Shown: positions 44,482-61,742 of the stretch, piece by piece
How positions within the stretch are numbered: the stretch's first letter is position 1
How the letters are laid out: the number at the start of each line of letters is the position of its first letter
Origin: Paracoccus sp. IB05
Lineage (GTDB): Bacteria > Pseudomonadota > Alphaproteobacteria > Rhodobacterales > Rhodobacteraceae
Direction: 5' to 3'
DNA: 64,000 bases
NCBI RefSeq assembly: GCF_016405985.1
Contig: NZ_JAEFCF010000014.1
Coordinates: forward strand, 45,697-109,696
Program-made: the position numbers and the translations under genes
Notes under the pieces: model-generated
Seen by the model: the letters and a program-made list of their open reading frames with translations, nothing else
Database searches by the model: none
Told to the model about the DNA's origin: nothing

Positions 44482-44572
44482 TCCCGTTCAGACCCGGCGC
44501 CGCCATCGCACCCTACCGCCGGTGGCTTGACCTCAGCGGCACCTCTGCGGCGCGAGATGCCGGCACCTGGCA

Positions 44573-44778
44573 GTGCATGGTGCCATTGCCCCCAGGGGGA
44601 ATGGCAGGGAACAGGACAGCCACGGGGTCCGCGACAGGCGGAAGAGGCCGCGCGAAATCCGACCGCCCCCGCGATTGTAAGCGGAAAGCCACCCCGATTG
44701 CCCATTGTGGCCCGGCAAAGCCGGCCATGGGAAGGACGGGACGGCCGTGACCCGCAAGTCAGGAGACCGACCCTGCAT
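44573..44778 (+). promoter_or_regulatory. Cobalamin riboswitch 1
   Basis: Conserved elements occur in order: GGTGCC (44579), GGGAA (44607), CCGCCCCCGCGATTGTAAGC with GG (44663-44684), CCATTGTGG (44702), GGGAAGG (44729) and the B12-box end GACCCGCAAGTCAGGAGACC (44749-44768). TGCA at 44574 and 44774 can close the outer stem. The first start codon (44817, with GGAGG) lies 39 bases downstream. It should repress the following, now decayed, transporter locus when cobalamin is plentiful. Confidence 0.93.
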
Positions 44779-44816
44779 TCTGGCTCAGCCGTCGGGTGTG
44801 ACGGATCGGAGGAAGA

Positions 44817-45320
44817 ATGGACAATAGCGCGCCACCGGCGGCCTCTGGTCGCACGGTTCCTGACCTGCCTGAGGCCGCCCGGCCTGGTTTGCCCGCATCT
44901 GGCCCGCACATATCCGGCCTGCACATAGCCCGCCCGGCCGCCACCGGGGCATCGGGACCGGGCCTCGCCCGGATTGAACCTGCCCGGTTCCTGCCCGGTG
45001 AGGGCGAGACCACGAGGGTCACGCTTCCGGGTGTGGCGGATACGATGCGGGTCGATCTGCTTCGCCTCGGGCCCGGGCTTTCGGTCGCGCTCAGCCATTT
45101 TGCCGCCGGTTCCGGGATGGAAGATCTGGTGCGCTGGCCGGCGGGGCGTTTGCTCATGGCGTGCAACATGACCGGCGCCATGGCCATTCGCGACGCAAGT
45201 GGCATCTCCCATCCGATCCGCAATGGCGAAGGCTGGGTGCTGCATACCGGCGCGGCCCTTGCGCCGCATTCTGCATCCGGGCGAGGCCTGTCCCAACCTT
45301 GTGATCGTCCTGGACTCTGA
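44817..45320 (+). pseudogene. Riboswitch-linked protein, AraC-sensor-like, probably frameshifted
   Basis: First gene behind riboswitch 1, with a good GGAGG site. As read it gives 167 residues with an Ala/Pro-rich start and then MRVDLLRLGPGLSVALSH...AIRDASGISHPIRNGEGWVLHTGAAL. The end in this frame looks random, while the +1 frame from about 45260 continues RRILHPGEACPNLVIVLDSD. The joined sequence resembles the N-terminal sensor of PchR-like AraC regulators, but no helix-turn-helix follows. A frameshift near 45258 and loss of the 3' part are likely. The family assignment is tentative. Confidence 0.45.
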
Positions 45321-46027
45321 CGCTGTCAGTCCTTGTCGCGATCTGGGAGGCGCTGTCGCGCCAGCCCCTGCCGCCGATCCTGCCCGGGCCACTGCCGGTT
45401 GCCCGCGCGCTGACGGGCCTGATCGCCGGGCGCGCCTTCTGGCTCGAGACCCTCGCCCCGAGCCTTGCCGCGGCTCTGGCCGGGATCTTCATCGCGCTGC
45501 GTGCCGGGCCTGGTCTTGGCGCGCTCTCAACCCGCTGGCCGTTGGCCGGCACGGCCCTTGCGCCGCTGCGGCTGATCCTGATGGGGATACCGGCGGCGGT
45601 GCTGACGATCCGGCCGATCCTCTGGCTTGATGGCGGGCCGGTCATGGGGATCACGGCGGTCGCCATATTGCTGCTGCCGGTCTTCCGGATCGCGACCAGC
45701 AGCGGACTGGCCGCCGGTGACCCCGGGCTCGACGGGATGGCACGGCTGTTCCGGATGCCGCGCCTGCGCCGGTTGCGTCACATCACCTGGCCCGCGCTGG
45801 CCACCGCGCTCCTGCCCGCGCTGCGCCTGGCCCTGGCCAATGGGCTGCGGATCACATTACCGGTCGAGTTGCCCGGCGGACGCCAGAGGCCTGGACGCGC
45901 CATCCGGTCGGCGCAGACCTGGCTGATGACGGACCGGCTCTTTGCGCTCACCATCGTCACCCTGCTCCTGATCGCCGCGCCTGAGGCGCTGTTGGGCCGG
46001 CCTGACCGCGAGGCGGTGCGGCCATGA
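45305..46027 (+). pseudogene. ABC transporter permease remnant (SsuC/TauC-like)
   Basis: The frame open from 45305 reads as a membrane permease: LSVLVAIWEALSRQPLPPILPGPLPVARAL resembles the start of nitrate/sulfonate-type permeases, followed by hydrophobic helices and an EAA-like loop (GLDGMARLFRMPRLRRLRHITWPALATALLPALRLAL). No ATG/GTG/TTG is available at its beginning; the first internal ATG would delete the first helices. The substrate-binding protein expected in such operons is absent. It ends overlapping the ATPase remnant by 4 bp. Confidence 0.65.
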
Positions 46028-46642
46028 CCCCGCTTGTGACTGTCGAAGCCGTGAGCTTACAGATCAGGCCTGATCAGCCGCGCCTGTTCGGACCGCTGTC
46101 TTTCCGCCTCGCCCCGGGGCGACAGCCTGCGCCTCACGGGGCAAAGCGGTGCCGGCAAGACCGCGCAGTTGCGCCATATCGCCGGCCTGCCCGGCCCGGT
46201 CACCGCCGCGGTTCACCGACGTCCTGACCTGCGCATCGGCTTTGCCTTTGGCGACCCATAGCTGATCCCCGGTCTGACGGCGGCGCATAACATCGCGCTG
46301 GTGCTGCCCGGGCGCGCGGGGCCTGACATCCGCAAGGCCCTCGCGAAACTGAATCTCGGCGCAGAGGCCGACCTGCCCGCCCGGCATCTGTCAAAAGGTC
46401 AGGCGCAGCGGGTTGCGCTGCTGCTTGCGGTTGCGATCCGCCCCCATCTCCTGCTGCTGGCTGCGGCCGCCTCGGGGCTGGATGAAGAAACCTGGGGCCT
46501 CGTCACCGCGATGATCGCTGAGTTGCGCGCTGAAACCCGCTTTGCCCCGGTCGAGATCAGCCATGATCCGCAGCGGCTTTTTGCCCCGGTTTCGCGCAAT
46601 CTCGCGCTCAGCCCTGCGCCAGCTGGCCCGGCTGCGGCCTGA
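46024..46642 (+). pseudogene. ABC transporter ATPase, frameshift plus nonsense
   Basis: The start MTPLVTVEAVSLQIRPDQPRLFGPLSFRLAPG is an ABC ATPase beginning. At the G4 run 46116-46119 one extra base shifts the frame: the rest (DSLRLTGQSGAGKTAQLRHIAGLPG, with Walker A) lies in another frame. That frame is then broken by TAG at 46259-46261 in GDP-stop-LIPGLTAAHNIAL and continues to 46642 through signature ARHLSKGQAQRVALLLAVAIRP. Walker B is degenerate (LLLLAAAASGLDEE in place of LLLDEP). The gene is inactive as written. Confidence 0.85.
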
Positions 46643-46750
46643 AACGCATCACATTCCGGGCCTGAGATCAATTTCGACATATTTTGCCGCAGACAGGACA
46701 GTTTTCCGCTTTGCGCCTGTTCTGATCGCGTCAGATCAGGGTGTCACCCT

Positions 46751-46960
46751 ATCGGGAGGTGTCTGGCGGAGAAATGGGAAGCCGGTCCGATGCCGGTGCT
46801 GGCCCGGCAACGGTGGCAGCGCCGTGCAACATGGCGGGACCCACTGGCCGGGGGAGCGGCAGGGAAGGTGCCATGTCGGTCCCTGAAAGGGATCGGGCCC
46901 GGTGTTCGGAAACCAGCCCTGAGGCGGAAATCAGCGTGGCTGCGGCGGGCAGTCAGGAGC
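46751..46960 (+). promoter_or_regulatory. Cobalamin riboswitch 2, diverged
   Basis: Core elements in order: GGTGTC (46758), AATGGGAAGCCGG (46773-46785) with CCGG (46793), GCTGGCCCGGCAACGG (46798-46813), stem ACATGGC/GCCATGT (46829-46835, 46870-46876) enclosing CCACTGG (46841) and GGGAAGG (46862). The terminal box is weak (AGCCCTGAGGCGG at 46914, or AGTCAGGAG at 46951), so the 3' limit is uncertain. It lies about 80-120 bp before the Rieske oxygenase start with no other gene between. Confidence 0.6.
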
Positions 46961-47039
46961 GCTTTGCCGGGTCCGCTGCGGACCGCGACCTTGCGTCTCC
47001 GATCCCCCGGGGCAGCAGACAAACCAGCAGGAGGCCAGA

Positions 47040-48278
47040 TTGGGCGCGCTTCACGACGATAATTTCTCCACCCCGGACCAAAGGCCCGATGCCATAGCGC
47101 GGCTGATCGCAGATCACCGCCCGGGCCATGGCCTCGTGCGGGATTTCTACATGGATCCGGACGTCTTTGCCCGTGATATGGAGCGGGTGTTCCGCCGCCA
47201 CTGGCACTGTCTGGCCCATGAAAGCGTGATCCCGAAGCCCGGCGATTTCGAACTGTTCCGCCTTGGCGATGAACAGATCATCCTGACGCGCGACATGCAG
47301 GGCGAGGTGCATGGGCTCCTGAATTCCTGCCGCCATCGTGGCGCCGAGGTCTGCACCAAAGACAGGGGCAATGCGAAGATGTTCGTCTGCCCCTATCACG
47401 CCTGGACCTATACTCTGGACGGCGCTTTGCGCGCGGCCCGGCTGATGCCGAAGGATTTCGACCGCGCCGCCCATGCACTGAAAAAAGTGCATGTGAAGGT
47501 GGTCGAGGGGCTGGTCTTCATCTCTTTCGCGAAAGAGCCACTGGATTTCACGCAAGTGGAGCAATCCCTGCACGCCAGTATCGGCCAATATGGCTGGGGC
47601 GCGGCAAAGGTCGCCCATCGCGAGACCTATCCGATTTCCGCGAACTGGAAGCTCGCGGTCGAGAATTATGTCGAATGCTATCACTGCGGCCCGGCGCATC
47701 CGGAATATTCGCAGACCCACGCGCTGGAACAACCGCCCGAAGTGATCGCCGGTCTCAATGCAGCGATGGAGGAAAAGAGCTGCGCGCTCGGGCTTTCCGT
47801 GCTGTCGGGCAATCACTGGCAGAATTCGGCCCGGGGCGGCGAGGCGGTCGATGTCTTCCGCTATGCGCTTTACGAGGGCGCCTCGACCGGGTCCGAAGAT
47901 GGCTCCCCCCTCGCACCTTTGATGGGGCGGTTCACCGATTATGATGGCGGCGTGACCTCGATCCATCTCGGCGGCACAACCTTCCTGGTCTGCTATCCCG
48001 ATCACGGCATGATCTACCGTTTCATCCCGAAAACCCATGATACCTGCGAGATGGAACTGATCTGGCTGGTGAAAGACGGCGCCGAAGAAGGCGTCGATTA
48101 CGATCTGAACCGCCTGACCTGGCTCTGGAAGGTCACGACCGAGGAAGACAAGAAGATCATCGAACACACCGCGCGCGGTGTGAAATCGCATTACTTCGAG
48201 CCTGGTCCCATCGCACCGATGGAATATAACGAGCTGCGCTACATCACCTGGTATCTCGACGAGATCAGCCGCGCCTGA
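47040..48278 (+). CDS. Rieske-type non-haem iron oxygenase, alpha subunit
   Basis: A 412-residue terminal oxygenase of the ring-hydroxylating/betaine-demethylase type. The Rieske 2Fe-2S site is CRHRGAEVC and CPYHAWTY (residues ~98-120); the mononuclear iron site is ENYVECYHCGPAHPEY. A TTG start at 47040 follows AGCAGGAGG by 7 bases; no better ATG exists upstream. There is no reductase or ferredoxin gene beside it. Quaternary-amine demethylases (glycine betaine, stachydrine, carnitine types) are the closest general pattern, but the substrate is not established. The preceding element suggests cobalamin control. Confidence 0.9.
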   Translation: MGALHDDNFSTPDQRPDAIARLIADHRPGHGLVRDFYMDPDVFARDMERVFRRHWHCLAHESVIPKPGDFELFRLGDEQIILTRDMQGEVHGLLNSCRHRGAEVCTKDRGNAKMFVCPYHAWTYTLDGALRAARLMPKDFDRAAHALKKVHVKVVEGLVFISFAKEPLDFTQVEQSLHASIGQYGWGAAKVAHRETYPISANWKLAVENYVECYHCGPAHPEYSQTHALEQPPEVIAGLNAAMEEKSCALGLSVLSGNHWQNSARGGEAVDVFRYALYEGASTGSEDGSPLAPLMGRFTDYDGGVTSIHLGGTTFLVCYPDHGMIYRFIPKTHDTCEMELIWLVKDGAEEGVDYDLNRLTWLWKVTTEEDKKIIEHTARGVKSHYFEPGPIAPMEYNELRYITWYLDEISRA

Positions 48279-48587
48279 CCAGCGCCATAACCGGAAGAAA
48301 CGGGGTTCCGGCCCCGCCCGGGCCTCGCTCGCTCCGCCAGGCACTTCGGCCAGGGGCTGCCTTCCGCCACTTTTTGCAGGACTGGCGGAGGGCCGGGTGT
48401 TCTCCACCGCAGATCACCCGCAACCTCGCCCGTCCCGCCCGCCGCCCCTGTTAAACTCTCCGGATATCAAACTCGGCGCCCCCCCCCGGCAGGCCCGGCG
48501 ACCTGCCCGCAGCGGCTGTCCCCCGCGCGCCCCAGCAAAATGCGCCCTCAGTCCCGCGCCCGGAAAAGCGGCAGCGCGGCGCAACAG
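48279..48587. other. Intergenic stretch between convergent genes
   Basis: About 310 bp of GC-rich DNA with a run of nine C at 48480-48488 and no supportable gene, tRNA or terminator. A family B repeat arm follows immediately. Confidence 0.5.
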
Positions 48588-48640
48588 CTTTCCCCTGACG
48601 AAAATACTCTCGCCGAAGGCAAAGCGCCCCGCAGGGGCGC
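48588..48640 (-). repeat. Repeat family B, single-arm copy
   Basis: CTTTCCCCTGACGAAAATAC plus TC (48588-48609) matches the right arm of the element at 42986, and is followed by GCAAA and GCGCCCC-GCA-GGGGCGC (48624-48640) in the same order as there. It lies 8 bp beyond the stop of the minus-strand GATase-like gene and could help terminate it. Confidence 0.85.
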
Positions 48641-48647
48641 CCCCTTC

Positions 48648-50774
48648 TCAGCGCTTCGCGCCCCGGCGGCCCTCGATCAGCCAGGCGGAGATGGCCAGCC
48701 CGGCGGTCAGCAGAAGCCAGGCCCAGCCCGGCAGCAAAGCCGCCAGCCGCACCTCGGTGGTCATCCAGGCCTCGCGCGGCGTGATACCGATCCAGCCGCG
48801 CCCCGTCACCGGCCGCCCCTCAGCCACCTGGCGCAGGTCCGGCAGGCCGGGCTCCAGCCGGGTCACCGATCCATAGGCCGGGCCGCCGGCGGATTTCGGC
48901 GCGATCACCGCATCGCCCGAGGCGATGGTTTCGACGAATTCGCGCGGGCTGGCCGGGCCGACACCGATCATTCGCGTCAGATCGCCCTGTTCCAGCCGGT
49001 AGAGCCCGGCCTCGGGCGCCTGCCAGACCACCTGATACTTGCCGGGCGCCACCTGGATCATATCAAGGATCACCGGCTTCCCGGGCTCTCCCGCCTCCGC
49101 GCTGTCCTGTGCGGTGACAATCAGCGGCCCCGGCGGGTCCTCGGACACCGTGCGCCGCGTGATGGTCAGTTCATTGCCTTTGGCGGTCGCCGTCAGCGCC
49201 TCTTCCTCGAGATCCGGCTCTTTCAGCATCCAATGCGCCAGCCGCCGCAAAAGCTCCAGCTGCGGCCCGCCGCCCTCATAACCGCGGCCCCAGAGCCAGG
49301 CATGATCCGAGGTCAGGACCGCGATCCGCCCCTCATCCACTCGGTCCAGCACCAGCAAAGGCGCGCCATCCGGCCCCTCCATCACGGTCTGGCCGGAAAG
49401 CTTCTCGACCTCCATCACCCGGAACCAACGGCCCCAGCCCGGCTCGCCATTTTCGCCCTGAGGCGCAAATCGGTCGAGGCCCTCGGTCACCGGATGGCGC
49501 TGGCCGAGTTCCGTGATCTTCGGGCGGAACCCGCCTTCGATGACCTGAGCGGTCGGTGCCACCGGCAGCACCTCGGCCAGAGGCGAACGGTAAAGGCTGT
49601 CGACCGCGCCGAATTCCGGCCCCGAGGCCACCAGAACCGTGCCGCCCTCGCGGATATAGCGGACGACATTGTCGATGTAAGACATCGGAAGAATGCCGCG
49701 CATCCGGTAGCGGTCAAAAATGATCAGGTCGAATTCGTCAATCTTTTCAATGAACAGCTCGCGCGTCGGGAAGGCGATCAGCGACAGTTCATCCACCGGC
49801 ACGCCATCCTGTTTCTCCGGCGGGCGCAGAATGGTGAAATGCACGAGATCGACGCTGGCATCTGATTTCAACAGGTTGCGCCAGACGCGTTCCCCGGCAT
49901 GTGGCTCGCCCGAAACAAGCAACACGCGCAGCCGGTCGCGCACGCCGTTGATCTGCACCACGGCGGTATTGTTGCGCTCGGTCAGCTCGCCCGAGGTCGG
50001 GCCGATGGCGAATTGCAGCACATTCAGCCCGCCATGCGGCAGCACGACCGGCAGTTCCAGATCCTCGCCCACCGGCACCGAATAGGTCTGCGGCGCATCG
50101 GCATCGACCGCGATGGTCAGATCGGCAAATTGCGGCACATCCGGCGGCACCAGACCCTGATCCTCAACCCGCAGCTTCAGCTTGAATTCCTCGCCGATGA
50201 TCGCGAAGGCCGGCGCATTCTGCACCACAAGGCGGCGGTCCCAGTCGGCCGCTTCGCCGGTCAGCAGCAGATGGAACGGCGCGGGCAGATCGGGGCGCAT
50301 CTCAAGGTCATGCACCCGCCCGTCCGAGATCAGGATCACCGCCGCCACCCGGGCGCGGGGTTCCTCGGCCAGGGCCTCCGACATGGCGGTCATCGCCAGC
50401 GTGCCGGTATTGTCGGCGCCATCGGTGATGTGTTTTACCCGCAGTTCGGTGTTGTCCAGCGCCGCAACCTGGGCCTCCACCCGCGTCAGCGCGCGCCGCG
50501 TCTGGTCAGCCCGCGCGCCAAGGCCCTGGCTTGCGCTGTCATCCACCAGGACGATCACAATGTCGGAAAGGTTCTGCCGGTCCTCGCTTTGCAGCCCCGG
50601 CCCGGCCAGCGCCGCCAGAAGCGCAGCCAGCCCAAGCCCGCGCAAAAACCAGCCCGGCAGCCCACGCCAGAGCGCCAGCGCCAGCATCAGAAGCGTCACG
50701 CCGCCAAGCGCCCATAAAAGCGGCCAGGGCACCAGCGGATCGAAGACAAGATGCGCCGTCATCGCGCCGTTCAT
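48648..50774 (-). CDS. Membrane protein with vWA- and GATase1-like domains
   Basis: A 708-residue protein with two N-terminal helices, a vWA-like segment (IVIVLVDDSASQGLGARADQ, then AAVILISDGRVHD), a beta-rich domain, and a glutamine-amidotransferase-fold domain (FDLIIFDRYRMRGILPMSYIDN ... GGTVLVASGPEFG) without an evident catalytic Cys. A final helix (LLPGWAWLLLTAGLAISAWLI) anchors the C-terminus. Most of it should face the periplasm. Last gene of the moxR operon and overlaps the DUF4159 gene by 4 bp. Function unknown; related Bat/aerotolerance-type operons concern envelope stress. Confidence 0.8.
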   Translation of the reverse strand: MNGAMTAHLVFDPLVPWPLLWALGGVTLLMLALALWRGLPGWFLRGLGLAALLAALAGPGLQSEDRQNLSDIVIVLVDDSASQGLGARADQTRRALTRVEAQVAALDNTELRVKHITDGADNTGTLAMTAMSEALAEEPRARVAAVILISDGRVHDLEMRPDLPAPFHLLLTGEAADWDRRLVVQNAPAFAIIGEEFKLKLRVEDQGLVPPDVPQFADLTIAVDADAPQTYSVPVGEDLELPVVLPHGGLNVLQFAIGPTSGELTERNNTAVVQINGVRDRLRVLLVSGEPHAGERVWRNLLKSDASVDLVHFTILRPPEKQDGVPVDELSLIAFPTRELFIEKIDEFDLIIFDRYRMRGILPMSYIDNVVRYIREGGTVLVASGPEFGAVDSLYRSPLAEVLPVAPTAQVIEGGFRPKITELGQRHPVTEGLDRFAPQGENGEPGWGRWFRVMEVEKLSGQTVMEGPDGAPLLVLDRVDEGRIAVLTSDHAWLWGRGYEGGGPQLELLRRLAHWMLKEPDLEEEALTATAKGNELTITRRTVSEDPPGPLIVTAQDSAEAGEPGKPVILDMIQVAPGKYQVVWQAPEAGLYRLEQGDLTRMIGVGPASPREFVETIASGDAVIAPKSAGGPAYGSVTRLEPGLPDLRQVAEGRPVTGRGWIGITPREAWMTTEVRLAALLPGWAWLLLTAGLAISAWLIEGRRGAKR

Positions 50775-53614
50775 TGGCCGAGCCTTTCAAGAAGCGCAGG
50801 CACATGGACCTGGTCGGATTTATAATTGCCGGTCAGCACATGCATGATCAGATTGATGCCGAACCGCCAGGCCAGCTCGCGCTGTTGTTCGCCCGCCGCC
50901 CCCCGGCCCACCGGCAAAAGCGGCACGCCGTTTTCATCGGTGGCCCAGGCCGCCGCCCAGTCATTGCCGCCGATCACCACCGGCGTCACCCCGTCATTCA
51001 GGTTGCGAAACGGCACGCCCTCTTCCTGACCGGCATCTGCGGGCGCCGCCTCGACCCAGATCGTGCCCTCGGCCCAGCGGCCGGGGAAGCTTTGCAAGAG
51101 GTAGAAGGTCCGGGTCAGAACATGGTCCTCCGGCACCGGCTCCAGCGCCGGGATATCCAGACCGGCGGCGATCCGTTGCAGTGCCTGGCCTTCCGGAGTG
51201 CCGCCGCCAAAGGCCGCGATATTGGCGTCACGGGTGTCGAACAGGATCATGCCCCCGGTGCGCAGAAACTGGTTCAGTTTCGCATAGGCCGCGTCCGACG
51301 GCGTTGGCGCATCTGCCGTAACCGGCCAGTACAGGAAGGGGAAAAACGCAAGTTCATCAGCCTCGAGATCAATCCCGGTCGGATATTCCGGCTCGATCGA
51401 GGTGCGTTCCCAAAGCCGGTCGCCAAGCCCGACAAGGCCGAATTCCGAGGTCTCGTCGATCTGCGCATCGCCGGTTTTCACATAGGCCAGCGAGACGCCC
51501 GAGGTGGAGCGGATCGCGAAGTCATCGCCGGGTTGCGGCGTGTCAGGCGGCGCGCTGTCGGTGGTCTGCGCGGCCTCGGGGGGCGCGGGCGGCGTCTCGC
51601 CGCTGACCTGGGCCTGCGCCTGTGGCGCGGCCAGCCCGGCCACAAGCGCCACTGCGAGAACCGCAACCCCGCGCCGCAGGCCGCCGAGCCGCCCCCCAAG
51701 CCAGAGAGAGGCAAGGATATCGGCCAGCAACACCACCAGCCCGGCCGACAGGAGCCAGCCCATGAGCGATTGTTCGGGCGGGGTCGCAAGCCCTTCGACC
51801 CGCGCCGAAGCCGGCCATTCCGCCGCCACCAGCCTGGTCTCGGGGCTGACGACGTTCAGGGCGACACGGCGGTCGGCACCCGCGTAAAGCCCGGGCGGAT
51901 GGGCGGGGCCAGGACCTGCCACCATCGCAATCGCCAGGTCTTCGCCCGCCACACCTGCGACCTCGCCCGCGTCACGTTCTTCGCCCCAGGCGTTCAGCAT
52001 CACCTCGGGCACCCAGATCTGGCCGGCGAGTTCACGCGCGCCCGGCAAAGACGGGCGGGTTGAGATCGCCAGGCGTTCAAGCATCTGCACGAAAAGCCCG
52101 GACAGCGGCAAAGTCGACCATTCCGCATTGGCGGTGACATGAACCAGAACAACCTGGCCGTCGCCCATGAATTTGCGCGTGACCAGCGGCGTGCCATCAT
52201 CCAGGGCGGCGATGGTGCGTTCCGCAAGGTCAGGGTCGGGCTGCGCCAGGACCTGCTCGGCCACCTGGACATCGCCAGGCAGTGCGAGGCCGAAGAAGGG
52301 GCTGCCCTCAGGGAACGGCGCCAGGTCCTTCGCATCGCCCCAGCTCATCGCGCCGCCAAGCGCGCGGCCCCCTTCGCGCAGCCGCACCGGCATCAGCGGG
52401 TCTTCCTCGAAACGGCTCACATCCGAGGCCGCGAGGCGCGGGCCGGCAAAGCGGAGCAACAGCCCGCCCTTTTCGACCCATTCCACCAGCGCCGCCTCTT
52501 CCGATGCGGTCAGCCGGGCAACATCGGCCAGGATCACGGCATCGGGATTGGCGGGCAGCGCCGTCGTCACCGGCGCCTCGATCAGATCGGCCACCGGCTC
52601 CAGCGCCTGGCGCAGGTAATGCAAAGGCGACAAAAGCTGCAGCCCTTCGGCCTGGGGGCCCGCGGTGATCAGCGCCACCTTGCGCCGCTTGAGACTGTCA
52701 TCGGTCAGGCTCACCGCCCCGGCAGACCGCAGACCCGCAATCTCGAAGCGGGTGACGCGGTTTCTGAGCTCGGGCGGCAGGTCAAGCTTCACCTCGGCCC
52801 GGGTCTCGCCGGGCGCAAAGCTGATCCTGGCCCGCGCGAGTTCGCGCTCCACCCCCGAAGGATCCGGGCCGCGCCCGGTGACCTCGATATCGGCCGCCCC
52901 GCCCGCATCAAGCCGCGAGGCGGACAGCAGCACCGCGCCTTCGGCAAAACCGGCCGGATGCAGCGCCAGCACCGGGCCATCGCCGGTCAGCACCGTCAGC
53001 TGCCCCTTATCGGCGAACAATCCCGCCAGCATGGCGCGCCCCTCGTGATCCAGCCCGTCCGACAACCAGAGCGTGTCGAACTCTCCGGCCGGGAAATGAT
53101 CAATCCAGGCGCCGGGATCCTGCGGCAGCCAGGGCGAGGGTTCCATCACCGCAAGCCTGCCCTTCCAGTCATCGGCGGCGCGGAAGCTCACCTCCTGGGG
53201 CGCATCGGTCAGGCGGATCACCGCGACCGTGCGACCGTCGCGACCGGCCTCGTCCAGCACAAGCCCCGCGCGCTCGATCCGGCGCGCCCAGTCGCGCGCC
53301 TCCGCCCAGCCGCCGTCAAGCACCACCAGCAGTGGTGCCGTACCGGCCTGTTTTTGCTCAGGGTTCAGCACCGGACCGGCAAAGCCGATAATCGCCGCCG
53401 CCACCGCCAGCATCCTGAGAAGCAGCAACCACCAGGGCGTGCGGTCAGTCTCGGCATCCTCGTCCTGCAGGCCCAGAAGCAGCGCGACACCCGGGAACCG
53501 GCGGCGGATCGGCGCCGGAGGCACCGCACGCAGCAGGAACCACAGCACCGGAAGCGCTGCGAGCCCCCAGAGAATCCAGGGCGTCAGAAACCCGACCGGA
53601 CCAATCATGAACAT
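50771..53614 (-). CDS. BatA-N / DUF4159 membrane protein
   Basis: A 947-residue protein. The N-terminus has the BatA-type double-helix unit (FMIGPVGFLTPWILWGLAALPVLWFLLRA, then PWWLLLLRMLAVAAAIIGFAGPVL), followed by a large periplasmic part with vWA-like remnants, further helices near residue 670-710, and a C-terminal DUF4159 domain (FFPFLYWPVTADAPTPSDAAYAKLNQFLRTGGMILFDTRD). The start at 53614 overlaps the DUF58 stop by one base (TGATG); a longer start within DUF58 is unlikely. It probably forms an envelope complex with its operon partners. Confidence 0.88.
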   Translation of the reverse strand: MFMIGPVGFLTPWILWGLAALPVLWFLLRAVPPAPIRRRFPGVALLLGLQDEDAETDRTPWWLLLLRMLAVAAAIIGFAGPVLNPEQKQAGTAPLLVVLDGGWAEARDWARRIERAGLVLDEAGRDGRTVAVIRLTDAPQEVSFRAADDWKGRLAVMEPSPWLPQDPGAWIDHFPAGEFDTLWLSDGLDHEGRAMLAGLFADKGQLTVLTGDGPVLALHPAGFAEGAVLLSASRLDAGGAADIEVTGRGPDPSGVERELARARISFAPGETRAEVKLDLPPELRNRVTRFEIAGLRSAGAVSLTDDSLKRRKVALITAGPQAEGLQLLSPLHYLRQALEPVADLIEAPVTTALPANPDAVILADVARLTASEEAALVEWVEKGGLLLRFAGPRLAASDVSRFEEDPLMPVRLREGGRALGGAMSWGDAKDLAPFPEGSPFFGLALPGDVQVAEQVLAQPDPDLAERTIAALDDGTPLVTRKFMGDGQVVLVHVTANAEWSTLPLSGLFVQMLERLAISTRPSLPGARELAGQIWVPEVMLNAWGEERDAGEVAGVAGEDLAIAMVAGPGPAHPPGLYAGADRRVALNVVSPETRLVAAEWPASARVEGLATPPEQSLMGWLLSAGLVVLLADILASLWLGGRLGGLRRGVAVLAVALVAGLAAPQAQAQVSGETPPAPPEAAQTTDSAPPDTPQPGDDFAIRSTSGVSLAYVKTGDAQIDETSEFGLVGLGDRLWERTSIEPEYPTGIDLEADELAFFPFLYWPVTADAPTPSDAAYAKLNQFLRTGGMILFDTRDANIAAFGGGTPEGQALQRIAAGLDIPALEPVPEDHVLTRTFYLLQSFPGRWAEGTIWVEAAPADAGQEEGVPFRNLNDGVTPVVIGGNDWAAAWATDENGVPLLPVGRGAAGEQQRELAWRFGINLIMHVLTGNYKSDQVHVPALLERLGQ

Positions 53615-54495: not shown

Positions 54496-55508
54496 GCAGC
54501 CGCCTCAAGCCCGAGGATGCGGGTGGTGGTGCGCGAGATCACCGCGGCCAGGGTCTCGCCCCGCGCGCGGGCGGCGAAGGACAAAGCCATCCGATGCGTC
54601 AGCGTGGCCTGGGCCAGAGCCGCCACATCGTCGAGCGACGGCGCGAGCCGGCCGTGAAGGAGCGCCCGCGCCCGGACGGTCAGCATCAGAGCCTGCGCCG
54701 CGCGCGGCCCCGGACCCCAGGCGAGGCTGTCTTTCAGATCGCGGCCTTCGGGTTCCCCCGGACGACAGGCGCGCACGAGGTCGAGGATAGATTCGACAAC
54801 CTTATCGCCGACCGGCATGCGGCGAATGACCGATTGTGCCTGGATCAGCTGATCGGTGTCGAAAACCTGGATGGCATCGGCCTCAGCCGCGCCGGTGGTG
54901 GCGAGAAGGATCTCACGCTCGACCGCCCGGGTCGGGTAATCGACATCGACCTGGACAAGGAAACGGTCCAGCTGCGCCTCGGGGAGCGGATAGGTCCCCT
55001 CCTGTTCAATCGGGTTCTGCGTCGCGAGCACATGGAACGGCCGGCCAAGCGCGCGGTGCTGACCGGCGATGGTGACCTCTTTCTCCTGCATCGCCTGCAA
55101 AAGCGCGGATTGTGTTCGCGGGCTGGCGCGGTTGATCTCATCAGCGAGCAAAAGCTGGCAGAAGACCGGGCCTTCGAGAAAACGGAAGGCGCGGCTGCCA
55201 TCGGTCGCGGTCTCGAGCACTTCGGAGCCGAGAATATCCGCCGGCATCAGATCGGGCGTGAACTGGATGCGGTTGGCGTTCAGCCCCATGACGGTGCCGA
55301 GCGTGTCGACAAGGCGGGTCTTCCCAAGCCCCGGCAGACCGACCAGCAAAGCATGACCGCCGCAGAGCATGGCCGAAAGCACCAGCTCAACCACCTTTTC
55401 CTGCCCGATGAAGCGACGCTCGATCGAGGCGCGGGCCTCGCCGAGCTTTGCGCCCAGAGCCTCGATCTCGGTCACCAGCGCGACATCTCCTGCGGGGGCT
55501 GCGGTCAT
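54492..55508 (-). CDS. MoxR family AAA+ ATPase
   Basis: A 338-residue MoxR-type chaperone ATPase. Walker A GLPGLGKTRLVDTLG at about residue 58, Walker B CQLLLADEINRASPRTQSALL, sensor 1 VLATQNPIEQEGTYPLPEAQLDRF and the C-terminal lid SLAWGPGPRAAQALMLTVRARAL. MoxR proteins remodel vWA-containing partners; the adjacent DUF58, DUF4159 and vWA/GATase-like genes are the probable clients. First gene of the four-gene operon. Confidence 0.95.
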   Translation of the reverse strand: MTAAPAGDVALVTEIEALGAKLGEARASIERRFIGQEKVVELVLSAMLCGGHALLVGLPGLGKTRLVDTLGTVMGLNANRIQFTPDLMPADILGSEVLETATDGSRAFRFLEGPVFCQLLLADEINRASPRTQSALLQAMQEKEVTIAGQHRALGRPFHVLATQNPIEQEGTYPLPEAQLDRFLVQVDVDYPTRAVEREILLATTGAAEADAIQVFDTDQLIQAQSVIRRMPVGDKVVESILDLVRACRPGEPEGRDLKDSLAWGPGPRAAQALMLTVRARALLHGRLAPSLDDVAALAQATLTHRMALSFAARARGETLAAVISRTTTRILGLEAAA

Positions 55509-55649
55509 TCAGAGGCTCCATCTGTGTTGAACGTCGGTCTCAGCGGAGACATTAGACCGAAATCACCGCCGGACCACAAATGCCAAAAGGCGACTTGACA
55601 CAAATGATCGTGACAGAAGCGCGATGTTTCGCCGGTGACCACTGTCGCC

Positions 55650-55752
55650 GGGGGCCCTGCCCCCACGCGCTGCGCGCTCCCCCGGGATATTTAGGGACAG
55701 AAAATGAGAGGCCGCTATTTTCTGTCCTTAAATATCCCCGCCGGAGGCCTCC
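55650..55752. repeat. Repeat family A, complete copy in a divergent promoter region
   Basis: GGGGGC-CCT-GCCCCC (55650-55664), hairpin GCGC-TGC-GCGC, arm GGGATATTTAGGGACAGAAA plus ATGA (from 55684), short centre, inverted arm ATTTTCTGTCCTTAAATATC plus CCC (55717-55739), then CGCCGGAGGCCTCC. Unlike the other copies it lies between divergently transcribed genes, so it cannot be only a terminator. The remainder of the gap (55509-55829) shows a TTGACA at 55595 but no good -10. Confidence 0.9.
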
Positions 55753-55829
55753 GAAATCAGCCAGTTGCGGCGCGGTCTTGCGATCCGGGCCCGGGCATCC
55801 GACATTGGAGGGACAAGCCGGTGAGGATC

Positions 55830-56432
55830 ATGCAGGATCAGAGTAACAACCAGCCCTCAGCCGATGGCCTGGCTAAGGCGGCCACAGAGGCCACAAAGAA
55901 GGGCGGTTTGCCGCCGGTCCATCTGTGGAATCCGCCCTTTTGCGGCGATCTCGACATAAGGATCGCGCGGGATGGCACATGGTTCTATCTCGGCACCCCT
56001 ATCGGGCGCGAGGCGCTGGTGCGGTTGTTCTCGTCGATCCTGAAGCGCGAGGAAGGCAGATATTACCTTGTCACGCCGGTCGAGAAGGTCGGGATCATTG
56101 TCGAAGATGCGCCGCTCTTCGCCGTCGATATCGAGGCGGAAGGCACCGGGCGCGACCAGGTGCTGCGTTTTACCACGAAGACCGGGGACGTGGCCCTGGC
56201 CTCCGGCGCCCATCCGCTGGAGGTCAGACGCGATCCTGTTTCCGGCGAGCCCTCTCCCTATATCCTGATCCGGGGTGAGGGTGAGGCGGCGCTCTGGGCG
56301 CGGATCGACCGGAAAAGCTTTCTCCGGATGGTGGATTTCGGTTGCCATGAGACATATGACGGGGATAGCTGGTTTGGCCTCTGGTCTTCGGGGGAGTTTT
56401 TTCCCGTCATCAGATCTTCAGAACTGGCCTGA
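55830..56432 (+). CDS. DUF1285 family protein
   Basis: A 200-residue soluble protein of DUF1285 family type: LPPVHLWNPPFCGDLDIRIARDG at about residue 28, YLGTPIGREALVRLFSSILKREEGRYYLVTPVEKVGI and a beta-rich remainder. The function is unknown. It is divergent from moxR, an arrangement common in Rhodobacterales and suggestive of shared regulation. A GTG at 55821 is an alternative start. Nine bp separate its stop from the hydroxypyruvate isomerase start. Confidence 0.88.
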   Translation: MQDQSNNQPSADGLAKAATEATKKGGLPPVHLWNPPFCGDLDIRIARDGTWFYLGTPIGREALVRLFSSILKREEGRYYLVTPVEKVGIIVEDAPLFAVDIEAEGTGRDQVLRFTTKTGDVALASGAHPLEVRRDPVSGEPSPYILIRGEGEAALWARIDRKSFLRMVDFGCHETYDGDSWFGLWSSGEFFPVIRSSELA

Positions 56433-56441
56433 TCCCGATAT

Positions 56442-57215
56442 ATGTCCCGCTTCGCCGCCAATCTGACCTATCTCTTCACCGAGGTCCCGATGCTGGACCG
56501 CCCCGACTGGGCGCGGCGCACCGGCTTTGACGGGGTCGAGGTGCTGTTCCCCTATGATCACCCGGTTGCAGAATGGGAACGCGCGCTTGGCGACATGCCG
56601 CTCGTGCTGATCAACACGCCCCCGGGCGACTGGGCCTCGGGGGATCGCGGCTTTGCCGCCCGGCCCGGCGATGAGCAGACCTTCCGCGACGGGTTCCTTC
56701 ATGCTGCCGATTATGCGACGCGGCTGAATGTCCCTGCGGTGCATGTTATGGCCGGTGTCGCGCGCGGGCCACAGGCCGAGGCGGTGTTTACCGCCAATCT
56801 TACCTGGGCCGCCGAACAGGCGCCGGATCTGACGCTCGTGATGGAGCCGCTGAACCCCGACGACATGCCGGGCTACTTCCTCAATGATTACGACCAGGCG
56901 GCGCGGATCATCGACGATATCGCCAATCCGAAGATCGGCCTGCAATTTGACATCTGGCATGCGGCAAAGCTGCATGGCGATGCGGCCAGCGTCTGGGCCG
57001 ATCATCGTGACCGCATCCGCCATGTGCAGATCGCCGGTTTCCCGGCCCGCAATGAACCGGGTGGTGGCGGCTTTTCGCTGCCTGATCTCTGCGATGCGGT
57101 GGCAGAGCTGGAAAATGTCTGGATCAGCGCGGAATACCGGCCTGCGCGCGGCACGGCCCAGGGGCTGTTCTGGCTGAATGCGCTGAAATCGCGTGGCGCG
57201 CTGATCGGCGGCTGA
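56442..57215 (+). CDS. hyi: Hydroxypyruvate isomerase family protein
   Basis: A 257-residue TIM-barrel sugar isomerase that interconverts hydroxypyruvate and tartronate semialdehyde. Metal ligands and active-site acids are in TLVMEPLNPDDMPGYFL, IGLQFDIWHAAKLHGD, RIRHVQIAGFPARNEP and ENVWISAEYRP. The start MSRFAANLTYLFTEVP is typical. It is isolated from other glyoxylate genes here; ghrA, which acts on related compounds, is 12 kb away. Confidence 0.9.
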   Translation: MSRFAANLTYLFTEVPMLDRPDWARRTGFDGVEVLFPYDHPVAEWERALGDMPLVLINTPPGDWASGDRGFAARPGDEQTFRDGFLHAADYATRLNVPAVHVMAGVARGPQAEAVFTANLTWAAEQAPDLTLVMEPLNPDDMPGYFLNDYDQAARIIDDIANPKIGLQFDIWHAAKLHGDAASVWADHRDRIRHVQIAGFPARNEPGGGGFSLPDLCDAVAELENVWISAEYRPARGTAQGLFWLNALKSRGALIGG

Positions 57216-57250
57216 CCTCTTCCGGCACCGCCCGGGGCGCATAAGCGCCG

Positions 57251-57712
57251 TTACTTGCGGCGCAACCGGATCACCACATCGACACGGCTGATTTCGGTGC
57301 CGGCGGGGGGCTCGGGGATACGGGCGAGCTCGAGCTCTTCCTTGGGCGCATCGGTCAGGATCGCGCTGTCTTCCCAGTAGAAATGCGGGTGATCGTCGAT
57401 CCGCGTGTCGAAATAGCTGCGGGCCCCATCGACCACGATCTCATTCACGAGCCCGGCATCGCAGAATGCGCGCAGGGTGTTATAGACGGTGGCGAGGCTG
57501 ACTTTCTCCTGCGCGCAGCCGGCCATCTCGAAAAGGCTTTCGGCGGTGACATGGCGATCTTCACCATCGCCGACCAGCAGGCTGGCCAGAGCAAGGCGTT
57601 GCCGCGTCGGGCGCAGGCCCCCGCGTTGCAGCCAGTCAGAGGCCCTTTCCTGAGCCCTGATCTCTGCCTGAGCCCTTACATCGTGAGCTTCGCTCGCCTG
57701 TGCCATATCCAT
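57251..57712 (-). CDS. irr: Fur-family iron response regulator Irr
   Basis: Transcription factor of 153 residues that responds to haem/iron in alphaproteobacteria. Winged-helix part LRPTRQRLALASLLVGDGEDRHVTAESLFEMA with recognition helix KVSLATVYNTLRAFCDAGLV; the dimer domain has DDHPHFYWEDS, the His-rich haem/metal region of Irr. The ATG at 57712 has AGGAG upstream. It is divergent from fabA. Direct control of the fab genes by Irr is not shown by any matching operator. Confidence 0.9.
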   Translation of the reverse strand: MDMAQASEAHDVRAQAEIRAQERASDWLQRGGLRPTRQRLALASLLVGDGEDRHVTAESLFEMAGCAQEKVSLATVYNTLRAFCDAGLVNEIVVDGARSYFDTRIDDHPHFYWEDSAILTDAPKEELELARIPEPPAGTEISRVDVVIRLRRK

Positions 57713-57987
57713 CCTGCTCCTGCCCTTTTGCCGCAGTGTCACAGCATCGCGTTCCGTTTCCGGGCCGCCGGCCCCTGTAAAATGCAGGGAGGCAGCACCG
57801 ACCGGACGCGACACCGCCAGCTGTCATACGGGCGTTGCTGGAAAGATTATAAAGTGTTGCGGCCCGGGGATTCAATTGAAAACCGCCAAAATGCCCTGCG
57901 GCCCCCTCGCAAGCGCTGCGCCCTTGCCCTATGTTTGTCGCCTCTGTTAGAGGAAAGTTGTGAAACTAAAGACAGAACGGGGAGATT

Positions 57988-58497
57988 ATGGGGCGTTATC
58001 CGAACAAATTCGACCGGGATGACCTGCTCGCCTGCGCAAGGGGCGAGCTGTTTGGCCCCGGCAACGCCCAGCTGCCCGAGCCGCCGATGCTGATGATGGA
58101 CCGCATCACCGAGATCTCGGAAGATGGCGGCGAGCATGGCAAGGGCCATGTGGTTGCCGAATTCGACATCACGCCGGATCTGTGGTTCTTCGCCTGCCAT
58201 TTCCCCGGCAATCCGATCATGCCGGGCTGTCTTGGCCTTGACGGGCTGTGGCAGCTGACCGGGTTTAACCTCGGCTGGCGCGGCTGGGAAGGCCGCGGCT
58301 ATGCGCTTGGCGTGGGCGAGGTCAAACTTACCGGCATGGTGCGCCCCGAGCGCAAGATGCTGCGCTATTACGTCGATTTCACCAAGGCCGTGCAAAGCCG
58401 CCGCCTGACCATGGGTGTGGCAGACGGGCGCGTGGAAGCGGATGGCGAGACCATCTACCTCGTGAAAGATATGAAGGTGGCCCTCTCGGCCTCCTGA
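57988..58497 (+). CDS. fabA: 3-Hydroxydecanoyl-ACP dehydratase/isomerase
   Basis: Key enzyme of anaerobic unsaturated fatty-acid synthesis: dehydrates 3-hydroxyacyl-ACP and isomerises trans-2- to cis-3-decenoyl-ACP. 169 residues. Hot-dog fold with catalytic His in [20 protein letters not shown] and the catalytic Asp in [15 protein letters not shown] precedes the ATG. It begins the operon fabA-fabB-fabI. Confidence 0.97.
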
Positions 58498-58521
58498 CCT
58501 CAAGGCAAGGACTGTACCCCT

Positions 58522-59751
58522 ATGCGTCGCGTCGTCATCACCGGTCTCGGCATCGTCTCTCCCATCGGCAATGATGTGGCCGAGGTCGAAGCCAGCCTGC
58601 GCGCCGGGAAATCCGGCATCGTTTTCGCCCCGGACTATGCCGAGCGTGGCTTCCGCTCGCGCGTGCATGGCCAGCCGAACATCACCTTCGAGGACCATAT
58701 CGACAAGCGCGACCTGCGCTTCATGGGCGATGGCGCAGCCTATAATTTCATCGCGATGCAACAGGCGATCAAAGATTCGGGCCTTGCGGAAAGCGATATC
58801 TCGAATGAGCGCACCGGCATCATCGTCGGATCGGGTGGCCCTTCGACCAAATCCTTCTTCAAGGCGCATAACATCGTCGCGGAAACCGGCTCGCCCAAGC
58901 GGATCGGCCCGTTCGGCGTGACCAAAGGCATGTCCTCGACGACCTCGGCCTGCCTGGCGACGCCCTTTAAAATCAAGGGCGTGAATTATTCGATCACCTC
59001 GGCCTGCTCGACCTCGGCGCATTGCATCGGCAATGGGGCAGAGCTGATCCAGATGGGCAAGCAGGATATCGTTTTCGCCGGCGGCGGCGAGGAGCTCGAC
59101 TGGACGCTGTCCTGCCTCTTCGACGCGATGGGCGCGATGTCGTCGAAATACAATGACACGCCGGAACGCGCCTCGCGCACCTATGACGCCAATCGCGACG
59201 GTTTCGTGATCGCGGGCGGCGGCGGCCTTGTTGTGCTGGAAGAGCTGAACCATGCGCTGGCGCGTGGCGCAAAGATCTACGGCGAAGTCACCGGCTACGG
59301 CGCCACCTCTGACGGCTATGACATGGTCGCGCCCTCGGGTGAGGGCGGCGAGCGGTCGATGAAACTGGCGCTGTCCACCCTGCCGGAAGGCCGCCGGATC
59401 GACTACCTGAACAGCCACGGCACCTCGACCGGCGTCGGCGACATCACCGAGATCAAGGCGATCCGCCGCGTCTTTGGCGAGGGGAAAACCCCGCCGGTGG
59501 CCTCGACCAAATCTCTGACCGGCCACTCGCTCGGCGCAACCGGGGTGCATGAGGCGATCTATTCGCTGATCATGATGAACAAGGGTTTCATCGCGGCCTC
59601 GGCCAATGTCGAAACCCCCGACCCGGAGCTGCTGCCGGGCGAAATCGTGACCAGCCTTCGCGAGAATGTCGAAATTGACGGTGTATTGTCGAACAGTTTC
59701 GGGTTCGGCGGCACCAATGCCACTTTGGTTATGAGTAAATATCTCGGGTAA
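58522..59751 (+). CDS. fabB: Beta-ketoacyl-ACP synthase I
   Basis: Condensing enzyme of 409 residues, required with FabA to elongate the cis-unsaturated intermediate. Thiolase fold with nucleophile Cys in [18 protein letters not shown], His residues in [12 protein letters not shown] and [11 protein letters not shown], and the C-terminal [13 protein letters not shown]. It lies 24 bp after fabA. Confidence 0.97.
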
Positions 59752-59774
59752 GAATAAAGCGGGGGAACCGGGCA

Positions 59775-60563
59775 ATGGCCGGACTGATGCAGGGTAAACG
59801 CGGCCTCGTCATGGGGGTTGCGAATGACCGTTCCATTGCCTGGGGCATTGCCTCGGCGCTGGCGGCCGAAGGGGCAGAGCTGGCTTTCTCCTATCAGGGC
59901 GAAGCGTTCGGCAAGCGGTTGCAGCCGCTTGCCGCTTCGGTCGGATCCGATATCCTTGTTGATGTCGATGTGACCAATGAGGCCTCGCTGGACACCTGTT
60001 TTGCTGCGCTGAAAGACCGTTGGGGCAGCCTGGATTTCGTGGTCCATGCCATCGCCTATTCCGACAAGAACGAGCTGACCGGGCGCTTCACCAATACGAG
60101 CCGCGCGAATTTCCTCAATTCGATGAATATCTCGTGTTTCAGCTTTATCGACGTGGCCCGCCGCGCCGCCGAGCTGATGCCGGACGGTGGCAGTCTTGTC
60201 ACCCTGACCTTCCAGGGCTCGACCAGAATCGCCCCGAATTACAATGTGATGGGGGTGGCCAAGGCCGCGCTCGAATCAGCGACGCGCTATCTGGCAAATG
60301 ACCTTGGGCCGCAGGGCGTGCGGGTGAATGCGATCTCACCCGGGCCAATGAAGACGCTGGCCGGATCGGCGATCGGCGGCGCGCGCGCGACCTTCCGCCA
60401 CACCGAAGAAAACGCGCCGCTGCGGGCGAATGCCACACTGGAAACCATCGGCGGCACCGCAGTCTGGCTGTGCTCGGATTACGGTCGCGCCACGACGGGC
60501 GAGACGATCCATGTCGATGGCGGCTTCCATATCCTCGGTTTCCCGCAATCGGAAAACCTCTGA
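59775..60563 (+). CDS. fabI: Enoyl-ACP reductase (FabI type)
   Basis: NADH-dependent short-chain-dehydrogenase-fold enzyme of 262 residues that completes each elongation cycle. Cofactor motif KRGLVMGVANDRSIAWGIA, then DFVVHAIAYSDKNELTG, and the Tyr-x6-Lys active site in YNVMGVAKAALE. The tail DGGFHILGFP is typical. Third gene of the fab operon, 23 bp after fabB. Confidence 0.95.
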   Translation: MAGLMQGKRGLVMGVANDRSIAWGIASALAAEGAELAFSYQGEAFGKRLQPLAASVGSDILVDVDVTNEASLDTCFAALKDRWGSLDFVVHAIAYSDKNELTGRFTNTSRANFLNSMNISCFSFIDVARRAAELMPDGGSLVTLTFQGSTRIAPNYNVMGVAKAALESATRYLANDLGPQGVRVNAISPGPMKTLAGSAIGGARATFRHTEENAPLRANATLETIGGTAVWLCSDYGRATTGETIHVDGGFHILGFPQSENL

Positions 60564-60604
60564 ACGGCGCCGGAATGGGGGGTAAATGCCCCCCCCGTCC
60601 CAGC

Positions 60605-61390
60605 TCAGCAAAGCATGTCAGGCGGGCTGAGCCAGCCCGTCGCCCAGCCGGTGGCCCAGGTCATTGAGCGCTGCTGTGGCGCCGCCGCGACCAGGATGGC
60701 AAGGTCATCGAGACCGGCCAGCAGATCCAGCGCCGGCGCCGCCGCAGGGTCAGGCCGGGTGGCGTCGATCAGCAAAACCCCGGGCCGCATCGCAAGTGCG
60801 CGTGCCATCACCAGGGCCAGCTGGCCGGCGGCATCAAGCCCGGCGCAATCCTGATCCGCTTGCGCGAGCAGGCCCATTTTCGCCAGCGCCATCGCGATAT
60901 CCTGCCGCCGCCGGTCATCCCGGACCTCGCCCCAGTCACAGCCCTCGGGCAAAAGCGCCCGCGACACCGTCTGCCACAGGCTCACTCCCGCACTCACCCC
61001 CACCCTACCCGCCGGATCGCAAAGGCTTCCCGCGTCAACCAAAGCGACCTTCTGCCGGACCTCAGCCCCAGACATCAGCCAGATGTCGCGCCCCTGCAGG
61101 CAGACCGCCCCGGCCATCGCCGCAGTTTGCCGCGCGATCAGCCGCAGCACCTCCGCCGCAATCTCCGGCTGATCCCCGAACAGAACCAGCCGCTCGCCCT
61201 GATCGAGGCGAAAGCTGAGCCGCGGCCAGAGACGCGGGTCGCGGCCCTGAACCTGCGAAGGCAGCGCCACTTTCCGAAACTCAACCGGAGGAAAACCGGC
61301 CTGTGTCAGCGCCGCGCCGGACGCACGCACCGCGCGGCTGTCGCCATGACGGATCTTAAATCCCCCCGAGGGGGCCTTCGCATATATCAC
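60605..61390 (-). CDS. Degenerate ABC-ATPase-like protein behind a cobalamin riboswitch
   Basis: A 261-residue protein starting at GTG 61390 (AGGAG six bases upstream), 48 bases after cobalamin riboswitch 3. It has the outline of an ABC ATPase (LWPRLSFRLDQGERLVLFGD ... QLALVMARALAMRPGVLLIDATRPDP), but Walker A (GxxGxGKS/T) is replaced by FGDQPEIAAEV, the signature is LDAAGQL and the Walker B Glu is absent. No permease or binding protein adjoins it. It is either a decaying gene or a non-catalytic B12-regulated protein. It ends 41 bp from the convergent fabI stop. Confidence 0.7.
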   Translation of the reverse strand: MIYAKAPSGGFKIRHGDSRAVRASGAALTQAGFPPVEFRKVALPSQVQGRDPRLWPRLSFRLDQGERLVLFGDQPEIAAEVLRLIARQTAAMAGAVCLQGRDIWLMSGAEVRQKVALVDAGSLCDPAGRVGVSAGVSLWQTVSRALLPEGCDWGEVRDDRRRQDIAMALAKMGLLAQADQDCAGLDAAGQLALVMARALAMRPGVLLIDATRPDPAAAPALDLLAGLDDLAILVAAAPQQRSMTWATGWATGWLSPPDMLC

Positions 61391-61437
61391 CGCAAACTCC
61401 TTCCGGGGCACCCCGCCCGGGCTCTTGTTGATGTCTT

Positions 61438-61624
61438 GCGATGGCAGGTCTCCTGACTTGCGGGTCGCGGCTCGCTCCGGCCTTCCCGCCCCGAAGGGCA
61501 GTGGCATTCCGGAGGTTGCTCGCCGCTCACAGTTGCGGGGGCAGTCGGGGCCTTGGCGGTTTGAGCCGCCGCACCCCGTTCCCTTTTCACCCGAAACGGC
61601 CAGAGCCGGTCCGGGAACCATCGC
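61438..61624 (-). promoter_or_regulatory. Cobalamin riboswitch 3
   Basis: On the minus strand: outer stem GCGATGG/CCATCGC (61618-61624 with 61438-61444) closes exactly, GGGAAC and GGTGCGG follow, then CTGCCCCCGCAACTGTGAGC with GG (61523-61544), GCCACTGCC, GGGAAGG and the B12 box GACCCGCAAGTCAGGAGACC (61446-61466). All conserved elements are intact. It leads into the GTG start at 61390, where a Shine-Dalgarno sequence could be sequestered. Confidence 0.95.
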
Positions 61625-61742
61625 CCCTATGGAAAACCCGGAGCGGTCCGGGGTCAACCGGTTTTTGCCCCCCGCTCCGCGAGGGCGCACGCAGGGGCCA
61701 TGACGGCGCCAGCGGTCACAAACGGAGACCAGCACTACAATA

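Follow-up and report, generated by a model that had tools for sequence, protein, structure and literature searches.

Genes and elements at the locus

The 64-kb window considered here is the whole stretch of DNA that was analysed (64,000 nucleotides from Paracoccus sp. IB05). It holds three cobalamin riboswitch elements within 17 kb, and the second of them, directly upstream of a gene for a Rieske non-haem iron oxygenase, is the main subject of this report. A preliminary description, made from the sequence alone, had proposed three such elements. Scanning the window with cmscan and Rfam bore this out, as all three score above the RF00174 gathering cut-off of 31.5 bits (Table 1) and the earlier coordinates agree with those of cmscan to within about 30 bases. 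Chance is ruled out as the source of the matches by the cut-offs, the recurrence of the elements and covariation. A sequence said to be shared by two of the elements, GACCCGCAAGTCAGGAGACC, is present in elements 1 and 3. It also holds for all three that none stands before a canonical B12 gene. The downstream genes were named correctly as a broken ABC locus, a Rieske oxygenase (PF00355 and PF00848) and an ABC-like protein (PF00005) that lacks Walker A, no GxxGxGK[ST] being found by eye.

The genome (5.29 Mb in 108 contigs) carries 12 RF00174 elements, the three of the window included. Other loci led by a riboswitch encode MesX-MesD, a GbcA-like and GbcB-like pair, and TonB and ABC uptake systems; further ones comprise CobW-CobN, a CbtA-like gene, a BluB-like gene and an AraC-TonB locus. 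CobW, CobN, CbtA, BluB and most of the transport genes in these loci were named by eye from translations. The three elements of the window represent three different stories and not one island.

Table 1. Features of the window, with positions counted from its first nucleotide
Feature	Position	Strand	Evidence and remarks
Element 1, cobalamin riboswitch aptamer	44561..44789	+	RF00174 59.4 bits; upstream of broken locus
Remnant of AraC-type regulator (residues 33-155 of 335), two frames	44817..45334	+	tblastn with intact L021 AraC, 79% and 69% identity; frame change near 45255
Remnant of ABC permease	45308..46024	+	PF00528 above cut-off at 45542-46024; 51% identity to residues 114-348 of a 352-aa frame in L142
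Remnant of ABC ATPase	46115..46639	+	Internal stops and frame changes
Element 2, cobalamin riboswitch, Rieske-linked subclass	46722..46935	+	RF00174 48.4 bits; subclass model R1 136.8 bits
L5 loop and CAACGGT signature	46801..46814	+	L5 is GGCCCGGC in the window, GCCCCCGC in relatives
Subclass box CGGAAACCAGCC (canonical form AGGAGACCTGCC)	46907..46918	+	Subclass alignment
Candidate L13 (CGGGGC), then Shine-Dalgarno AGGAGG	47008..47034	+	Putative kissing loop
Rieske non-haem iron oxygenase, predicted quaternary-amine N-demethylase, 412 aa	47040..48278	+	PF00355 57.5 bits, PF00848 97.1 bits
Intact 261-aa ABC-like protein without Walker A	60605..61390	-	PF00005 26.8 bits; AlphaFold model; five full-frame relatives
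Element 3, canonical cobalamin riboswitch 5' of ABC-like gene	61426..61637	-	RF00174 130.2 bits

The Rieske gene and the riboswitch subclass

Both the Rieske and the catalytic domain of the window protein score above their Pfam cut-offs. The nearest solved structures are 3n0q, 4qup and 3vca, of which we take 4qup and 3vca to be stachydrine demethylase. The protein is called a predicted quaternary-amine demethylase because its score with the NCBIfam GbcA model falls far under the cut-off. The neighbours in 80 named loci with an orthologue fit this label. FAD-GcvT proteins of the dimethylglycine/sarcosine dehydrogenase type form the largest cluster (47 loci), followed by MttB-family proteins (18) and a thioesterase with a carnitine dehydrogenase C-terminal match (15); BHMT-like proteins (2) and a formaldehyde dehydrogenase (L065) are rarer. 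No reductase gene was called beside the window gene. At L023 and further loci from Mesorhizobium the Rieske orthologue is immediately preceded by a gene for an MttB-family methyltransferase, with no riboswitch, and Rfam also gives a PYLIS_3 (mttB) match in L023.

Sequence comparison indicates that the Rieske gene is under strong purifying selection, with dN/dS values of 0.054, 0.072 and 0.098 against three relatives, and the copy in the sister genome G046 is 97% identical. A riboswitch match stands directly 5' of the gene in all four genus genomes found to have an orthologue, the three other leaders scoring 66.3, 69.8 and 67.1 bits with RF00174. G000, G046 and G051 also contain third Rieske copies (L114-L116; 47-48% identity), which lack a riboswitch.

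A single leader type aligns among the four genus orthologues, Rhizobiales orthologues and GbcA-like genes (alignment A1). Like other RF00174 riboswitches, these leaders possess the core, L5 and the closing strand, and they score above the gathering cut-off. They differ in their linkage to Rieske genes and in a signature consisting of AATTGGGAA, CAACGGT and CCGGAAACCAGCC, in place of canonical forms such as AAGAGGGAA, CAACTGT and CAGGAGACCTGCC. Two of the exchanges are marked as compensatory in Infernal alignments, CUG/CAG to CGG/CCG and A-U to U-A at the base of P3, and the adjoining junction changes from AGA to AAA. A covariance model of the subclass, R1, was built from 16 seeds that include element 2. 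Within the genome R1 gives 136.8 bits for element 2 and 168.7 for the leader of the GbcA-like gene, compared with at most 73.2 for the other six elements listed. Across 67 aligned matches, from the subclass and others, 93.3% of cells pair under the R1 structure, and covariation is 0.515 compared with at most 0.097 when the structure is slid; the alignment had been made to fit R1, and the RNAalifold structure of this model differs from that of Rfam in individual pairs.

Distribution of the subclass

R1 was run on three whole-genome samples, the family (295 genomes), the class (385) and the order of G014 (397), at E 1e-22 or better. The first gene downstream of each element was named by BLAST against 20 reference proteins of our own choosing, and box counts compare element sequences, since the same genome may be listed twice (as G001 and G047). 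The family has 40 elements in 36 genomes. Of these, 33 score at least 100 bits: 25 precede GbcA-like genes, one is that of the window and seven precede a small protein. GbcA-like genes number 64 in 61 of the 295 genomes, and 25 of them have an R1 element 54-134 nt upstream. The class sample yielded 18 elements in 15 genomes, two of these elements belonging to the genome studied here; eight of the 16 others have the box, seven before GbcA-like genes and one before FdhA. In the order, 43 elements were found in 41 genomes, 27 with the box, 26 of which precede GbcA-like genes and one (L273) nothing identified.

Taken over the 99 elements (40 from the family, 16 from the class and 43 from the order), the box is present in 68, including four seeds. 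The 64 that are not seeds precede GbcA-like genes in 55 cases, the small protein in seven, FdhA (formaldehyde dehydrogenase) in one and nothing identified in one. Behind the 31 elements without the box there are TonB receptors (10), CobW (6), NrdE (4) and genes with no match in the reference set (11), nine of which resemble cob/cbi genes by eye; none of the 31 is followed by a Rieske gene. When the genus, named and followed-up loci are added, 81 distinct elements have the box, and they stand before GbcA-like genes (67), the small protein (7), window-type Rieske genes (4), a BHMT-like gene followed by a Rieske gene (1), FdhA (1) and a gene that was not identified (1). Near forms of the box, GGACACC in L105 and GCAAACC in L033, also precede a Rieske gene and lie outside the 81.

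Several operons join these genes behind one riboswitch. The order is riboswitch-GbcA-GbcB-BHMT-like-Rieske in L271 (172 bits), riboswitch-GbcA-GbcB-Rieske in L035, where riboswitch-MesX-MesD adjoins, and riboswitch-BHMT-like-Rieske in L034. The protein of the L015 operon is called GbcA-like because its NCBIfam GbcA score of 497.4 bits misses the equivalog cut-off of 670; its partner has 366.9 bits with GbcB (cut-off 500). Class Ib nrd genes lie 3' of the riboswitch-GbcA-GbcB operon in L015 and L203, those of L203 having a cobalamin riboswitch of their own, while none was detected for those of L015. The small protein is conserved, about 90 aa long with a C-terminal RRGG tail, and is encoded just after the R1 element at seven loci (L191-L196 and L204). 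The members tried gave no Pfam match above cut-off and no NCBIfam match. A profile of the protein finds 59 homologues, the named ones being "hypothetical" or "uncharacterized".

A proposed role in sparing B12

Many bacteria use betaine as a source of carbon, nitrogen and energy. In Ruegeria pomeroyi it is demethylated by the cobalamin-dependent MtgBCD, and GbcAB constitutes an oxygenase route that makes formaldehyde (PMC12478193). MesX-MesD has been described as a B12-free methionine synthase (PMC7857596). The genome studied here encodes MtgC-like (L237) and MetH (L238) proteins, both named by eye, three MttB-family genes, and MesX-MesD behind a cobalamin riboswitch (L013).

Element 2 is probably a cobalamin riboswitch of a subclass that stands before Rieske demethylase-type genes and likely blocks translation when cobalamin is bound and permits it under cobalamin shortage. 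In this way the cobalamin-dependent betaine methyltransferase would be replaced by an O2-dependent demethylase. The subclass RNA would bind cobalamin, and binding would turn the gene off through a kissing loop between L5 and L13, the latter adjoining the Shine-Dalgarno sequence. At low cobalamin the riboswitch would release translation and the oxygenase would take over, as MesX-MesD would for MetH. The window protein would then demethylate betaine or a like quaternary amine, and the swap to an O2-dependent enzyme would pay under low B12. The "B12-sparing" role suggested in the preliminary description fits element 2. For the candidate L13, CGGGG occurs within 60 nt 5' of the start in 14 of 24 GbcA-like leaders (of 25, one gave no start) compared with 37 of 192 control genes, some starts being mis-called by the script.

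Elements 1 and 3

Comparison of the sequences shows that element 1 is what remains of an AraC-TonB-ABC uptake locus. It is partly paralogous to L021, a locus of the same genome in which a riboswitch leader is followed by an intact AraC regulator and TonB receptor. The two leaders share 87% identity over 221 aligned bases, and the AraC piece has 76% DNA identity to L021. A working transporter is ruled out, as every gene is broken; the permease remnant is presumably NitT/TauT-like. The AraC-TonB-ABC order is unbroken in G048 (L142), and Rfam gives no riboswitch match there. In the sister genome G051 the leader aligns (87%), yet Rfam finds no riboswitch in the aligned leader, and window positions 45032-46262 have no counterpart. 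In G046 only short pieces of the region align, with no Rfam riboswitch at that place.

Element 3 precedes a protein whose match to PF00005 is marginal (cut-off 25 bits). Its five full-frame relatives have 35-53% identity, and Walker A is absent by eye from all six aligned sequences. A search of 5.8 billion proteins, in which 7,995 candidates were scored, found three relatives besides the protein itself. The AlphaFold model has low confidence (mean pLDDT 60.6) and matches ABC ATPases with E values down to 1.8e-08. The pair of riboswitch and gene recurs in two other genus genomes, G044 (128.3 bits) and G043 (123.0 bits), in surroundings that differ from those of the window. A solitary ABC-like protein without Walker A thus stands behind a strong cobalamin riboswitch in three genomes (window 60605-61390, L143 and L145). 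The copy on contig C28 of G044 is broken, and the sisters G046 and G051 retain no more than a 3' piece of the gene. The protein reads as a lineage-specific pseudo-ATPase, and its gene is likely under B12 control. In G046 this region contains island-like inserts (L139 13994-17013 and L140 4909-10001) with integrase-like, Fic-like and helicase-like genes, named by eye; they also occupy the site after fabI, where the window has element 3.

Alternative explanations

Several observations weigh against the proposed role of element 2 as a switch between demethylation routes. The window Rieske protein scores 275.7 bits with the NCBIfam GbcA model (NF058607), for which the equivalog cut-off is 670 bits. 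Named orthologue loci have an R1 element within 3.5 kb in only 6 of 80 cases, a seventh (L061) lying just outside, and 39 of the 64 GbcA-like genes in the family have none at the threshold used. Every window-type Rieske leader with the box is an R1 seed, so blind support is limited to GbcA-like genes. The riboswitch of MesX-MesD in the same genome (L013, G000:C20:3758-3958) has the box CAGGAAACCTGCC and shares its A, which rules out this A as the sole mark of Rieske leaders. Genomes with a riboswitch-led GbcA-like gene lack MttB-family genes in 0 of 25 cases, compared with 4 of 36 other GbcA genomes; this co-occurrence says little because 280 of the 295 family genomes carry such genes, and it was dropped as weak evidence. 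The L13 count is support and not proof, because start calls are imperfect and the GbcA-like leader of this genome is among those in which CGGGG was not seen within 60 nt of the start. Element 2 itself has the lowest RF00174 score among the four orthologues. The other 15 seeds are invariant in 56 columns, and 6 of these are changed in element 2, two of them in L5; element 2 may therefore have lost regulation, the sister copies being sound. It could be that the window element is a decaying riboswitch whose Rieske gene has escaped control by B12, in line with what element 1 shows for its neighbours. The low score and the changed columns favor such decay, but R1 still recognizes the element strongly, RF00174 remains above its cut-off and the gene is under strong purifying selection, and we regard decay as rather unlikely. 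It is also conceivable, if unlikely, that the subclass senses another corrinoid form, for example methylcobalamin, in place of coenzyme B12 and reports the charging of the MtgB/MtgC route. In a cobalamin riboswitch the strand closing the ligand site contacts the ligand, and the exchange at the base of P3 and the AAA junction lie within or beside this strand. The full signature also tracks a narrow set of genes. A few residues have been described as sufficient to convert a cobalamin riboswitch between methyl- and adenosylcobalamin (PMC9600662). However, the A in the box is shared with the MesX-MesD riboswitch, and a lineage marker with an unchanged ligand would look alike. A fuller form of this idea, which is doubtful, makes the Rieske-linked elements a riboswitch subclass of their own. 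Their ligand site would be retuned to methylcobalamin, the form made by the MtgB/MtgC betaine route, and they would so gauge directly whether that route is running before releasing the oxygenase.

Cobalamin binding might instead switch the demethylase on, since an activating corrinoid riboswitch has been described (PMC10653944). This is very unlikely, as some of the leaders have a G-rich candidate L13 adjoining the Shine-Dalgarno sequence, an arrangement consistent with an off switch, and the genes that accompany the elements, either alongside or downstream (MesX-MesD, BHMT-like, class Ib nrd), are alternatives that do not depend on B12. The preliminary description had taken the clustering of the three elements to suggest a former uptake or B12-sparing island that is being dismantled or repurposed. 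Their density speaks for this, as 3 of 12 elements within 17 kb would occur by chance in about 0.7% of cases (a figure reckoned after the fact), and so does the erosion of elements 1 and 3 in sister genomes. Dismantling does describe element 1, with its three broken genes and, in G046 and G051, with no Rfam riboswitch match at this place and most of the downstream region missing. It applies to element 3 in those two sisters only. It does not apply to element 2, whose gene is under purifying selection and whose riboswitch is retained in 4 of 4 genomes with the gene. The homologues of element 3 in different surroundings in G043 and G044 speak against a single former island, and element 1 is a partial paralogue of L021. 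A common island under loss is highly improbable and was rejected as a single story on this evidence.

Relation to known systems and significance

The proposed switch between demethylation routes by element 2 resembles the riboswitch-controlled isozymes discussed by Sun et al. 2013 (PMC3766115), in which a cobalamin riboswitch stands before an enzyme able to replace a B12-dependent one. The difference lies in the enzyme, which in the present case is predicted to be catabolic, an O2-dependent demethylase; the words betaine, Rieske and oxygenase each occur zero times in the main text of that survey, supplements aside. As in glycine betaine monooxygenase GbcAB, a Rieske oxygenase and a reductase are encoded in one operon behind the riboswitch in L015, but both L015 proteins are under the curated cut-offs and the window protein is more distant still. 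MtgBCD (PMC12478193) would be the cobalamin-dependent betaine route that the Rieske enzyme replaces, and MtgC-like and MttB-family genes are present in the genome. Cobalamin-dependent betaine demethylation in aerobic marine bacteria was first reported in 2025 in the same paper, which in the portion covered does not link gbcAB to a riboswitch and has this word once, in the title of a reference. MesX-MesD (PMC7857596) is likewise O2-dependent, B12-free and, in this genome, behind a cobalamin riboswitch, but it carries out another reaction; the word riboswitch occurs zero times in the main text of that paper. A literature search of titles and the beginnings of abstracts, with survey supplements, RegPrecise and subscription papers outside its scope, gave no link between a cobalamin riboswitch and gbcA or a Rieske demethylase.

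The subclass offers a group of riboswitches whose ligand preference is directly testable. If the proposed role is correct, a catabolic reaction would join the B12-sparing isozymes. The supply of B12 would then be tied to the route of betaine breakdown, with the methyl groups either kept on cobalamin or folate or released as formaldehyde.

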